From Patescibacteria group bacterium (GTDB lineage Bacteria > Patescibacteriota > Microgenomatia > UBA8517): DNA of 37,185 nt. Under the pieces are notes generated by a model, which saw only the letters and a program-made list of their open reading frames with translations, was not told the DNA's origin and did no database searches. The stretch spans positions 382,393 to 419,577 of the forward strand of contig AP024680.1 of the NCBI GenBank assembly GCA_025999275.1, given 5' to 3'. The translations under genes and the position numbers were made by a program. This document shows positions 1,819-20,669 of the stretch, in pieces (position 1 is the first letter of the stretch; each line of letters begins with the position of its first letter).

Positions 1819-1919
1819 TTTTGAATTATATTCCCATACCCATGCCCCGTAATCCATAATTCTCAATTATTATTGTATCTGTGTATTAGTCTACGGAACT
1901 GGTATACTATCACCTTAAT

Positions 1920-1949
1920 TACTATCAATACATCGATGTATTGATAGTA
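1920..1949. repeat. 30-bp perfect palindrome, copy 1
   Basis: The half-site is TACTATCAATACATC and the second half is its exact reverse complement, giving a TCGA centre. A further copy of TACTATCA lies at 1905-1912 and could pair with the same right arm (TGATAGTA, 1942-1949). A near-identical palindrome lies at 19850-19879, differing at only one symmetric pair of positions. There is no T-tract after it, so it is not a standard terminator. A dimeric-regulator operator or a structured RNA element is possible. Confidence 0.85.
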
Positions 1950-2053
1950 GCTTATAGTTTGTTTTGTAAGTGACAGTTAGATGTGAGGTCTATATTTCTT
2001 ATACTCATAATTCATACCCATTATTCACAATTCATACTAAATTGTTTTAATTA

Positions 2054-2082
2054 TTTACTCTTATTTTTTTCTGTTGTATTAT
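2054..2082 (+). promoter_or_regulatory. Predicted sigma70-type promoter
   Basis: TTTACT (2054-2059), a 17-bp spacer, then TATTAT (2077-2082). The ATG at 2089 follows 6 nt after the -10 box, giving an apparently leaderless mRNA. This spacing decides the start at 2089 rather than the upstream in-frame ATG at 2074. Confidence 0.55.
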
Positions 2083-2088
2083 CAAATC

Positions 2089-3228
2089 ATGCAAAGAGTG
2101 GTGGTTGTGATGCCAACCTTCAATGAGGCAGAAAATATTGGTTGGATGATTGATGAGCTGGTTGGCAAAGAATTCCCTAAAATCAACGCTGATATGCATC
2201 TTCTTGTGGTTGATGCCAATTCTCCCGATGGTACGGCTAAAGTTGTTGAGGAGAAGATGAAGGGTTTTAAAAATGTCCATCTTCTCAAAAAAGAAAAAGA
2301 AGGGCTTGGGGCTGATTATGTGGCAGGTTTTAAATATGCAATGGATAAACTTGGTGCCGATGCTGTAATGGAGATGGATGCTGATGGTCAGCATCCGCCT
2401 GATAACGTTAAAAGAATGGTTGAGGCATATCTTAATGGCGCTGATTATGTAATTGGTAGTCGTTATGTTCCTGGCGGCTCGGTTCCAAAGGAATGGCCTT
2501 TTTCGAGGAAGGCTATAAGTTATCTGGGTAATCTTTTTATACGTCTTGTTTGGTTTAAATTTTCTCTTCATGATGTGACAACTGGTTTCAGATTAACAAA
2601 AGTGAAAGGGGTATTAGACAAAATTGACCTTGACCATCTGATGGCCAAAGAAAGATTTGCTTATAAAGTTGATTTGCTTTATCAAAGTATAAAGAATGCC
2701 AAAAATGTTAAAGAAGTGCCTCTTGAATTCAAGCCCAGAGTCAAGGAAAAGTCAAAGTTTAACCCCAAAGAAATGATTACCACTTTTAAAGTAGCAATCA
2801 TTTTGGGAATAAAGGATAAGCAGAGATTTATAAAATTTGGCACAGTTGGTTTTATTGGTTATCTTGTTAATGCAATCTCTTTAAAAATTATGACAAATAT
2901 TGGTGCTCCAGGGCTTTTGGCTTGGAGTTTGCCTGTCGAACTTTCTATTATTAGCAATTTTACTTTTAATAACCTTTGGACATTTAAGCAGGAAAAAATA
3001 GTTGGTTTAAAAAGGATCATTTACAAGTTTTTGCAATTTAATTTAACCAGTCTAGGGGCTTTGATAATACAGACTGTAGCTGGGAATATTGGTGATTTGC
3101 TGTTTGGAGTTGGTTCAAGACAATTGATCTTACCTTTTATTATAGTTTTCTTGGTCTTGCCTTATAACTACTTTATGTACAATGCTGTAATTTGGAAGAC
3201 TTGGAAACTTCCCTGGCAGAAAAGATAA
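2089..3228 (+). CDS. GT2 polyprenol-phosphate sugar transferase fused to GtrA-like membrane domain
   Basis: Residues 1-225 of this 379-residue protein form a GT-A fold GT2 domain like dolichol-phosphate mannose synthase (DPM1). It has MPTFNEAENI at the N-terminus, VDANSPDGT around residue 41, the metal-binding DAD at 97-99 in MDADGQHPPD, and IGSRYVPGG at 122-130. Residues 247-373 form a GtrA-like domain with about four membrane helices and the family signature SNFTFNNLWTF near 289-299. The GT2 part would put a sugar onto polyprenyl phosphate at the inner face. The GtrA part is usually linked to flipping such lipids or anchoring the enzyme. It is the first gene after the 502-bp gap and has its own promoter. 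Confidence 0.92.
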   Translation: MQRVVVVMPTFNEAENIGWMIDELVGKEFPKINADMHLLVVDANSPDGTAKVVEEKMKGFKNVHLLKKEKEGLGADYVAGFKYAMDKLGADAVMEMDADGQHPPDNVKRMVEAYLNGADYVIGSRYVPGGSVPKEWPFSRKAISYLGNLFIRLVWFKFSLHDVTTGFRLTKVKGVLDKIDLDHLMAKERFAYKVDLLYQSIKNAKNVKEVPLEFKPRVKEKSKFNPKEMITTFKVAIILGIKDKQRFIKFGTVGFIGYLVNAISLKIMTNIGAPGLLAWSLPVELSIISNFTFNNLWTFKQEKIVGLKRIIYKFLQFNLTSLGALIIQTVAGNIGDLLFGVGSRQLILPFIIVFLVLPYNYFMYNAVIWKTWKLPWQKR

Positions 3229-17998: not shown

Positions 17999-18913
17999 AT
18001 GGCAAAGATCTCAGTGGTTATAAATACATTAAATGAAGAGAAGAATTTGCCTTTTGCGATTCGTTCCGTTAAGGATTTGGCTGATGAGATTGTTGTTGTT
18101 GATATGGAATCTGAGGATAACACGGTTAGTGTTGCCAAGAGCCTTGGGGCGAAAGTGTTTAGTTATAGAAAAGTGGGTTATGTTGAACCTGCTAGAAACT
18201 TTGCTATTAGTAAGGCTACTGGTGATTGGATTTTAATACTTGATGCTGATGAAAGGTTGCCTGTGCAGCTTGTATCTAAATTAAAGAAGATTGTTAAAGA
18301 AAATGAGTTTGATTTTGTGTTTATTCCCAGAAAAAACTTAATATTTGGGAAATGGATTAAGCATTGTAACTGGTGGCCCGATTACAACTTGCGTTTTTTT
18401 AGGAAAGGGTTAGTTGTTTGGAGGGATGAGATACACAGTATTCCGGAAGCAAAAGGTAAAGGAACAAATTTATTACCCAGGGAAAAATATGCAATTGTTC
18501 ACAAAAATTACTCTTCTGTTAGTGGTTATTTAAAAAGACTTGACCGTTATACAACAATTCAATCTCAAGAGAAAATTGCCCATGGGTATAAATTTGATTG
18601 GAAAGATCTAATTAAGATGCCTGTTTCAGAGTTTTTTAGGAGGTTTTTTGCAGGTAAAGGATATAAAGATGGTGTTCATGGTTTGGTTTTATCGATGCTA
18701 CAGTCTTTTTCCGAGTTTGTGGTTTTGATAAAAGTTTGGGAAGCTAAGAAATTTAATGATTTAGATTTAGATTTGGAAGAAGTAAATGATGAATTGGTTA
18801 ATTTTGAGAAAGATCTAAATTATTGGAAAAACGATATGCTTCTTAAGAATAAAGAAATTAATCTTGTTTCTTCTTTGGTTCTTAAGGTTAAGCGAAAACT
18901 CAAGCTTATTTAA
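17999..18913 (+). CDS. WaaE-like GT2 glycosyltransferase, paralogue 1
   Basis: This 304-residue protein resembles lipopolysaccharide-core beta-1,4-glucosyltransferases (WaaE/KdtX group). It begins ISVVINTLNEEKNL, then VVDMESEDNT, ARNFAISKATGDW and LDADERL with the metal-binding DAD. FIPRKNLIFGKWIKHCNWWP and a DYNLRFFRKG motif follow, both characteristic of that group. The C-terminal 60 residues are charged and helical, beyond the usual length. The gene at 19887 is a paralogue with the same signature. It probably adds a hexose to a lipid-linked chain at the cytoplasmic face. The exact sugar cannot be read from sequence. Confidence 0.88.
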   Translation: MAKISVVINTLNEEKNLPFAIRSVKDLADEIVVVDMESEDNTVSVAKSLGAKVFSYRKVGYVEPARNFAISKATGDWILILDADERLPVQLVSKLKKIVKENEFDFVFIPRKNLIFGKWIKHCNWWPDYNLRFFRKGLVVWRDEIHSIPEAKGKGTNLLPREKYAIVHKNYSSVSGYLKRLDRYTTIQSQEKIAHGYKFDWKDLIKMPVSEFFRRFFAGKGYKDGVHGLVLSMLQSFSEFVVLIKVWEAKKFNDLDLDLEEVNDELVNFEKDLNYWKNDMLLKNKEINLVSSLVLKVKRKLKLI

Positions 18914-18916
18914 TAA

Positions 18917-18922
18917 TAAACT
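18917..18922 (+). promoter_or_regulatory. Possible -10 box
   Basis: TAAACT ends 4 nt before the ATG at 18927, in a 13-nt gap after the previous gene. It supports the ATG at 18927, but the gap is short and AT-rich, so chance is likely. Confidence 0.25.
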
Positions 18923-18926
18923 TTTA

Positions 18927-19847
18927 ATGAAAGAAAAGATCTTTATTATTATTCTTAATTGGAATAGAGCTGATGATACTTTAGCTTGTCTTAAGAGTTT
19001 ATCTTCGCTTGATTATTTTATGCTTGATCCTAATGTAGTCGTTGTTGACAATGGATCAACTGATAATTCTATTGATAGAATTAGTAAGTTTGAGCCCCAT
19101 AATTTTAAGTTGCACTTGATTAAAAACAATTCCAATTTTGGTTTTGCTAAAGGGAACAATATTGGTATTAGATACGCTCTTAAAAACAAAGCTGATTATG
19201 TTATGATTTTGAACAACGACACGCTGGTGGAAAGAAAACTTTTGTTAAACCTTGTTTCGGTGATAAAAAATGATAAAAAAGTGGGTGTGGTTTCTCCAAA
19301 AATATATTTTGCCAAAGGCTTTGAATTTCATAAAGAAAGGTACAAAAAGGAAGATTTGGGTAGAGTGATATGGTACGCGGGAGGGGAAATTGACTGGCAA
19401 AATGTTATGGGGATTAATCGGGGTGTGGATGAAGTTGACTGTGGGCAATTTGATTTGGTTGAGGAAACTGGTTTTGCTACCGGTTGTTGTAGTCTTTTTG
19501 CTTCTTATGTTTTGGAGAAAGTCGGTCTTTTTGATGAACGTTATTTTATGTATTTTGAGGACGTTGATCTATCAGTAAGAATTAAGAAAGCTGGCTTTAA
19601 AGTTTTTTATCAACCAGATGGGGTAGTTTGGCATAAAGTAGCCCAAAGCTCAGGTATAGGTAGTGGTCTTAATGACTACTTTATAAGCCGAAACAGACTT
19701 TTGTTTGGTTTTGCTTATGCGTCTTTTCGAACAAAAGCTGCTTTATTCAAAGAAAGTGTTAGACTTTTGTTTAAAGGCAGAGAATGGCAAAAGAAAGGTG
19801 TTGTTGATTTTTATTTGGGTAAATTTGGTAAAGGTAGTTGGGACTAG
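18927..19847 (+). CDS. WbbL-like GT2 glycosyltransferase (rhamnosyltransferase family)
   Basis: The 306-residue enzyme begins IFIIILNWNRADDTLACLKS, then VVDNGSTDNS, NFGFAKGNNIG and MILNNDTLV, where NND carries the metal-binding acid. It ends with DERYFMYFEDVDLSVRIKK, the acceptor-side motif of rhamnosyltransferase-like GT2 enzymes. A WHKVAQSSG element follows. The frame is open upstream to 18864, but the ATG at 18927 gives the standard N-terminus of the family. The gene is followed by a 39-bp gap almost filled by the second palindrome. It probably extends a lipid-linked oligosaccharide in the cytoplasm. Confidence 0.9.
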   Translation: MKEKIFIIILNWNRADDTLACLKSLSSLDYFMLDPNVVVVDNGSTDNSIDRISKFEPHNFKLHLIKNNSNFGFAKGNNIGIRYALKNKADYVMILNNDTLVERKLLLNLVSVIKNDKKVGVVSPKIYFAKGFEFHKERYKKEDLGRVIWYAGGEIDWQNVMGINRGVDEVDCGQFDLVEETGFATGCCSLFASYVLEKVGLFDERYFMYFEDVDLSVRIKKAGFKVFYQPDGVVWHKVAQSSGIGSGLNDYFISRNRLLFGFAYASFRTKAALFKESVRLLFKGREWQKKGVVDFYLGKFGKGSWD

Positions 19848-19849
19848 TT

Positions 19850-19879
19850 TACTAACAATACATCGATGTATTGTTAGTA
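19850..19879. repeat. 30-bp perfect palindrome, copy 2
   Basis: The half-site is TACTAACAATACATC and the other half is its exact reverse complement. It fills 30 of the 39 bp between two genes and ends 7 nt before the ATG at 19887. Compared with copy 1 at 1920-1949, only position 6 and its symmetric partner differ (T/A against A/T), so perfect pairing is kept in both. Confidence 0.87.
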
Positions 19880-19886: not shown

Positions 19887-20669
19887 ATGAAAAAATCATC
19901 TAAAAAAAGTAATAATTCTAAAATAAGCGCGGTTATTTTGACGCTAAATGAAGAAAACAAGATTGGTGATTGTCTTAATAGTCTTGATTGGGTTGATGAG
20001 ATAGTTTTGGTCGATAGTGATTCGACTGATAAGACTGCTGAAATTGCTAAAAGTTTTGGAGCTAAAGTTTATAGTTTTGTAAAAGGCAACTTCTCTGATA
20101 GGAGAAATTTTGGTACTAGCAAAGCAATGGGCGAGTGGGTTTTGCATATTGATGCTGACGAAAGAGTGACAAAAGAATTAAAAGATGAAATTTTAGAGAT
20201 TGTTAAAAAGGAATCTGATTTTTCTCATTTTGCCATTCCTCGTCAGAATTTTGTTTTTGGTAAAAAAATGCTTCACTGTGGCCTTTGGCCTGATTATGTT
20301 GTTCGTCTTTTTAGGAAAAGTAATTTTATTAAGTGGGAAGGTGACTTACATGAGACAGTAAAAGTGAAAGGCAAACTTGGTTATATGAATAATTATTTTG
20401 TTCATATCAAACATGATAATCTTTTTGATATAGTGGAGAAGACAAATAAATGGTCTTGTATCGAAGCTGATCTTATGTTTAACGCCAATCATCCACCAAT
20501 GAATTTACCTCGTTTTGCTTCGGCTATTTTTAGAGAGTTTTATCTAAGAATGATTAAACAAAAAGCTTTTCTTGATGGTGTTGAAGGTGTTATTTATGGT
20601 ATTTATCAGGTTTGGAGTAAGTTTATTAGTTATGCAAAACTTTGGGAAAGGCAAGTTAATGGTGTTTAG
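19887..20669 (+). CDS. WaaE-like GT2 glycosyltransferase, paralogue 2
   Basis: This 260-residue enzyme has the WaaE/KdtX-type signature: ISAVILTLNEENKI, LVDSDSTDKT, RRNFGTSKAMGEW, HIDADERV with the DAD motif, then FAIPRQNFVFGKKMLHCGLW and PDYVVRLFRK. It shares this layout with the gene at 17999 but lacks that protein's charged C-terminal extension, and it has a basic Lys/Ser-rich N-terminal tail (KKSSKKSNNSK). It is the gene directly downstream of the second palindrome, so its expression may be specially controlled. It likely adds a hexose to a lipid-linked intermediate. Confidence 0.9.
   Translation: MKKSSKKSNNSKISAVILTLNEENKIGDCLNSLDWVDEIVLVDSDSTDKTAEIAKSFGAKVYSFVKGNFSDRRNFGTSKAMGEWVLHIDADERVTKELKDEILEIVKKESDFSHFAIPRQNFVFGKKMLHCGLWPDYVVRLFRKSNFIKWEGDLHETVKVKGKLGYMNNYFVHIKHDNLFDIVEKTNKWSCIEADLMFNANHPPMNLPRFASAIFREFYLRMIKQKAFLDGVEGVIYGIYQVWSKFISYAKLWERQVNGV

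Follow-up and report, generated by a model that had tools for sequence, protein, structure and literature searches.

Several described systems share features with the palindromes analysed here. REPtrons (REP plus RAYT) comprise palindromes of 20–40 bp dispersed between, and sometimes in, genes, with a single gene that has its own repeats on either side and several orthogonal gene–repeat pairs per genome (PMC3733652). These features recur in the Patescibacteria genomes described below, where dispersed palindromes of this length number 12 copies in the genome that contains the window (G000) and 7–14 in two others (G165 and G120). However, the defining feature of the REPtron is missing, as the gene encodes a TrpR-family HTH protein (PF01371) rather than an HUH (Y1) tyrosine transposase. 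REPs are also imperfect hairpins carrying a GTAG/CGTC end tag, whereas the family found in the window is perfect, loopless and without an end tag, and the palindromes of the TrpR-like cassettes, in contrast to those of REPtrons, are of low copy number.

TrpR and HisR (YerC) share with the cassette protein its fold and family (PF01371), along with lineage-specific palindromic operators and autoregulation (PMC9413887), the last of which is predicted for the cassette protein. Their operators are 20 bp in length; the cassette palindromes are of 28–30 bp, which might comprise two overlapping 20-bp sites, and they occur one at each side of the gene. They are also found dispersed, and no target pathway common to them was apparent. 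The cassette protein differs in having an extra C-terminal region and falls below the NCBIfam equivalog cut-offs for both TrpR (at most 24.1 of 42.2 bits) and YecD/YerC (at most 22.2 of 67.25 bits). Similar to the palindromic elements of Rickettsia, one copy is inserted in frame in the conserved uvrA gene of G120, but the elements described here are tied to a dedicated DNA-binding gene. The Rickettsia elements also differ in sequence from the cassette palindromes. MITEs and solo transposon remnants are likewise short, have no coding sequence and resemble the ends of a unit that carries a gene; here, however, the ends are full palindromes, and neither a target-site duplication nor a transposase was recognised.

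The window palindromes and their twelve-copy family

The window, the whole stretch of 37,185 nucleotides under analysis, corresponds to positions G000:C1:382393-419577 of a complete, single-contig genome of 785,860 bp. A first-pass annotation had reported two distant palindromes, TACTATCAATACATC|GATGTATTGATAGTA (copy 1) and TACTAACAATACATC|GATGTATTGTTAGTA (copy 2), and both were confirmed at 1920–1949 and 19850–19879 as perfect over 30 bp, intergenic and different from each other only at a single symmetric pair of bases. These palindromes and their surroundings are as follows:

1869..2004, + strand: species-specific repeat of approximately 110–135 bp with copy 1 central to it (extent approximate, read from an alignment, edges not sharp)
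1920..1949, no strand: solo palindrome copy 1, TC type, half-site TACTATCAATACATC
2074..3228, + strand: gene with glycosyltransferase family 2 and GtrA domains, downstream neighbour of copy 1
18864..19847, + strand: glycosyltransferase family 2 gene, upstream neighbour of copy 2
19850..19879, no strand: solo palindrome copy 2, AC type, with a paired T/A change at arm position 10
19887..20669, + strand: glycosyltransferase family 2 gene, downstream neighbour of copy 2

No other perfect inverted repeat of the window comes near copies 1 and 2 in length, and they are its only matches to the palindrome at three or fewer mismatches. Copy 2 is squeezed between two glycosyltransferase genes, starting 2 bp past the stop codon of one and ending 7 bp ahead of the ATG of the next. 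A further repeat-like stretch of a different palindromic kind, TTTTGCCTGCCTGCCGTTAGGTAGG...GCCTGCCTGACGGTAGGT, occupies positions 1770–1816.

The first-pass annotation recognised no family of sites and proposed a search of the full genome and its relatives. This search overturned the first statement, recovering 12 copies with the core AATACATCGATGTATT in G000, of which one carries a single change, as well as cognate families in other genomes with paired changes between them; a reversed control pattern gave 0 matches in the whole G000 genome. The probability of chance or an assembly artefact is practically nil, and both are refuted by the lack of matches in 100 dinucleotide shuffles of the window, by the 12 copies present in a complete genome of one contig and by recurrence in unrelated, independent assemblies.

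Ten of the G000 copies have TATC half-sites (edge variants included), one has TAAC (copy 2 of the window) and one TACT. Within the same genus, G002 carries seven copies, all of the TACTACA type or close to it, while G001 carries none of this family, and a few copies occur beyond the genus in G022, G082 and G157. The palindrome type thus changes between genomes in a paired fashion. At the rpsI locus, both G000 and G002 have a solo palindrome in the intergenic region of the same convergent gene pair, with TATC..GATA in one genome, TACA..TGTA in the other and flanks that are no longer alike. Eight of the 12 G000 palindromes, copy 1 included, sit inside the degenerate species-specific repeat of 110–135 bp, and the genes beside the G000 sites are mixed. 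Neither the palindrome nor the cassette gene was found in viral contigs. In G157, rsmI also contains, in frame, a family member that is perfect over 30 bp (L019/L189, G157:C12:1198-1227); a simple insertion of this palindrome was considered and rejected, as the gene has no indel relative to its relatives.

The TrpR-like cassette and its paired sites

A single ORF of 150 aa sits between two of the G000 copies (548 bp apart), and together they form the parent cassette:

G000:C1:697022-697599: parent cassette, between rplL and a tRNA-Pro gene (tRNA recognised by eye)

One palindrome of this cassette (P1) lies between the promoter, TTGACA-17-TAATTA just ahead of it, and the start codon, and the other (P2) lies behind the stop codon. 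Copy 1 of the window is identical over its inner 28 bp to P1, the gene-proximal predicted operator of the cassette. Orthologous palindrome–gene–palindrome layouts were found in G022, likewise behind rplL, and in G082, where the promoter TTGACA-17-TATATT lies directly ahead of P1. In G002, no gene lies in the interval from rplL to tRNA-Pro, which has just one palindrome, preceded by a promoter-like TTGACA: a solo site where the relatives carry the cassette. The 150-aa ORF matches Trp_repressor (PF01371) at 33 bits against a cut-off of 27, with a range of 33–38 bits for the cassette proteins tested, and the best matches in sequence and structure searches were solved TrpR-like proteins, the structure matches being supportive only as the AlphaFold model was built from two sequences (pLDDT 64.5). 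No nuclease, recombinase or other catalytic domain was recognisable in the cassette protein.

A profile built from eight cassette proteins found matches in 117 of the 187 genomes of the class. The cassette clade comprised 95 genes, eight of them the seeds, and 91 were measured on both sides for strong palindromes, defined by a score of at least 8 within 60 bp of the start or stop. Strong palindromes were present upstream in 66% and downstream in 55%, occurring at one side at least of 71/91 genes and at both sides of 39/91, compared with 0.6% in shuffled flanks, 1.4% in control windows and 0% among 24 housekeeping-clade genes. A strong sigma70-type promoter preceded P1 in several cassettes (23% versus 3.6% in shuffles), and a few loci outside the class, elsewhere in the phylum, share the layout (e.g. 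L258 and L261). Around cassette L069, an apparent duplication of murD was rejected, the genes being two different Mur ligases. A separate clade of TrpR-like proteins of ~120 aa is without palindromes (G000:C1:160260-160580, L044, L048, L049 and L124, among others) and is likely a housekeeping regulator; the 24 short genes of the housekeeping clade are mostly syntenic with a methionyl-tRNA synthetase-like gene (assigned by eye).

P1 typically ends 0–8 bp ahead of the start codon and P2 starts 0–6 bp past the stop. Each cassette has a palindrome of its own: in the 41 cassettes with sites on both sides, the median identity of P1 to P2 is 26/30 bases, compared with 14/30 between cassettes. Within these pairs there were 45 compensated differences, most of them at arm positions 8–10, the variable zone that also contains the paired difference between copies 1 and 2 (arm position 10). 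Cassettes with more similar proteins also have more similar palindromes (Mantel rho 0.43, or 0.48 for the HTH; 0/2000 permutations reach either value); as protein and palindrome descend together, this correlation is read as co-inheritance and is no more than compatible with recognition.

The cassette palindromes also contain extra complementarity 4 bp off centre (0.483 versus a null of 0.297 ± 0.014, with other offsets nowhere near; sign test 30:6), a second dyad that the window's own subfamily shows only weakly (about 3–5 of 10 pairs). In E. coli, tandem TrpR binding has an 8-bp spacing. Two overlapping 20-bp sites would give a palindrome of 28–30 bp with a second dyad 4 bp off centre, and two TrpR-type sites of 20 bp with centres 8 bp apart would produce a palindrome of exactly 28 bp. 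On sequence grounds, the off-centre dyad matches the expectation for a pair of TrpR-type dimers bound 8 bp from each other. Tandem TrpR binding has been documented (PMC8745587) and is also the subject of structure 1TRR, according to its title.

The first-pass annotation had suggested either a dimer-bound operator or an RNA stem. The operator has strong, indirect support, as the family brackets a TrpR-family gene, often just behind a promoter, changes in a paired manner in many independent cassettes and is far more constrained than its flanks. The RNA stem fared differently. A hairpin serving as a terminator, stabiliser or processing site would fit the paired changes, which preserve base pairing, and the several copies just past stop codons, but the palindromes are loopless, low in GC and symmetric on both strands, and the stem-loop and T-tract of an intrinsic terminator are absent at copies 1 and 2, the missing T-tract having been noted from the outset. 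The sequence is, moreover, conserved per cassette instead of covarying freely, copies occur between convergent genes and within ORFs, and both the promoter position and the off-centre dyad, which is typical of TrpR sites, fit DNA binding. The RNA stem or terminator was therefore rejected as very improbable.

Solo sites, turnover and constraint

Dispersed sites were also found in other genomes, with the copy counts for G165, G001, G120 and G101 including copies at cassettes. G165 has seven copies matching one of its own cassettes, G001 has nine of its own cassette type, with paired variants such as TGTTTCG..CGAAACA, and the TGTTANN type is represented by 14 copies in G120 and six in G101. Solo sites lie between genes in several orientations, several of them just behind stop codons, and sometimes inside genes. 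Those of G101 and G120 copy the small asymmetry of their own P1, or a combination of the left half of P1 and the right half of P2. By half-site provenance, 13 solos match P1 only, nine P1 or the hybrid, six the P1-left/P2-right hybrid, one the reverse hybrid and one P2 only, with two ambiguous. As solos mostly resemble P1, an excision scar was rejected as their sole origin, and excision is possible, if unproven.

Within genes, the palindrome in uvrA of G120 (L204/L234, G120:C34:5596) constitutes a net in-frame insertion of 30 bp, or 10 residues, that is absent in ten relatives, and the gene for an ATP-dependent DNA ligase contains a copy at one shared position in G120 (L206/L219) and G201 (L220). 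The palindrome or its remnants were observed at one position of the ligase gene in several genera, including G127 (L226), where the right half seems to be split by a GC-rich insert of ~19 bp.

An ordinary regulon, in which a TrpR-family factor acts through operators on itself and on about ten host targets, the glycosyltransferases of the window included, would be in keeping with the TrpR/HisR family, whose regulators are frequently autoregulated and use palindromic operators specific to each lineage (PMC9413887), with the position of P1 behind a promoter and of copy 2 just ahead of a start codon (7 bp), and with the strong constraint on the palindrome. It is nonetheless unlikely, given that solo sites lie between convergent genes or, in other genomes, inside genes, that a promoter was not seen at most of them, and that the second palindrome directly past the stop codon is left unexplained. 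The compared loci are also not common to sister species, except for the syntenic intergenic regions at rpsI and rplL. For example, at five G000 loci compared with G001 and G002, the palindrome was found at none in these relatives (L008 was placed by its nuclease gene, with synteny unsure), and one G000 locus spans 575 bp where G001 has about 28 bp. The empty-site pairs compared, which were not close enough for precision, showed no clean target-site duplication.

Within the repeat of 110–135 bp, the inner 26 bp of the palindrome had 1/208 departures, compared with 38/393 in the left flank. The cognate TrpR-like gene was not found in G002, though this genome has seven family sites, and sites can thus outlive the protein; perfect inner arms were counted by eye in 3/7 sites in G002 versus 11/12 in G000. 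Together, the constraint on the palindrome and the better arms in G000 than in G002 suggest that the sites are kept intact by the protein. The tree of cassette proteins required 44 changes of host family, against a minimum of 21 and a shuffled value of 69.6, a partial clustering that indicates substantial vertical inheritance along with much exchange or loss.

A putative selfish cassette with dispersed sites

The window palindromes are probably solo copies of a predicted TrpR-like binding site that spreads in the manner of REPs, as a selfish cassette with solo sites. TrpR-like dimers would most likely bind the palindromes, probably two side by side with centres 8 bp apart; at P1, they would repress their own promoter and gene, and they may also bind P2 and the solo sites. 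The gene and its palindromes would then be a small selfish unit akin to a REPtron, with cassettes turning over between lineages and P1-like palindromes accumulating as solos between genes and, in other genomes, inside genes too. We infer the protein binding, autorepression and movement, and that spreading would be driven by the protein rather than by a host enzyme. Y1 transposases, present in all seven genomes tested, could act in trans. Four such genes occur in G000:

G000:C1:355301: Y1 (RAYT-like) transposase gene
G000:C1:431000: Y1 (RAYT-like) transposase gene
G000:C1:741161: Y1 (RAYT-like) transposase gene
G000:C1:760615: Y1 (RAYT-like) transposase gene

Given these genes, and as REPs are likewise palindromic, dispersed and sometimes intragenic (PMC3733652), the palindromes could instead be a REP-like repeat moved in trans by resident HUH (Y1, RAYT-like) transposases, with the TrpR-like gene as a passenger or repressor. 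This is rather unlikely, however, as the palindromes bracket TrpR-like genes, the G000 Y1 genes listed above coincide with no palindrome locus, and perfect, loopless palindromes without an end tag are unlike RAYT substrates.

For the window, the selfish-cassette reading means that copy 1 belongs to a dispersed repeat ahead of a glycosyltransferase gene and that copy 2 is a lone site between two such genes, the pair being more than operators of the local genes; a regulatory effect of either on the adjacent genes is possible. More tentatively, the cassettes might represent a minimal class of mobile element in Patescibacteria, in which the sole protein is of the TrpR family, there is no transposase of its own, a site lies at both ends of the gene, spreading extends genome-wide and into genes, and each lineage has a private protein–site pair. 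Nothing relevant to a pairing of Trp repressors with palindromes in the candidate phyla radiation, or to REP elements there, was found in the open-access papers searched.

If the selfish-cassette reading is right, these genomes would hold dozens of independent, naturally matched pairs of TrpR-fold protein and DNA site, which would be good material on specificity and the co-evolution of symmetric sites. It would also account for many of the puzzling perfect palindromes in Patescibacteria genomes, and suggests that these very small genomes carry a widespread selfish element made up of a repressor and its operator.
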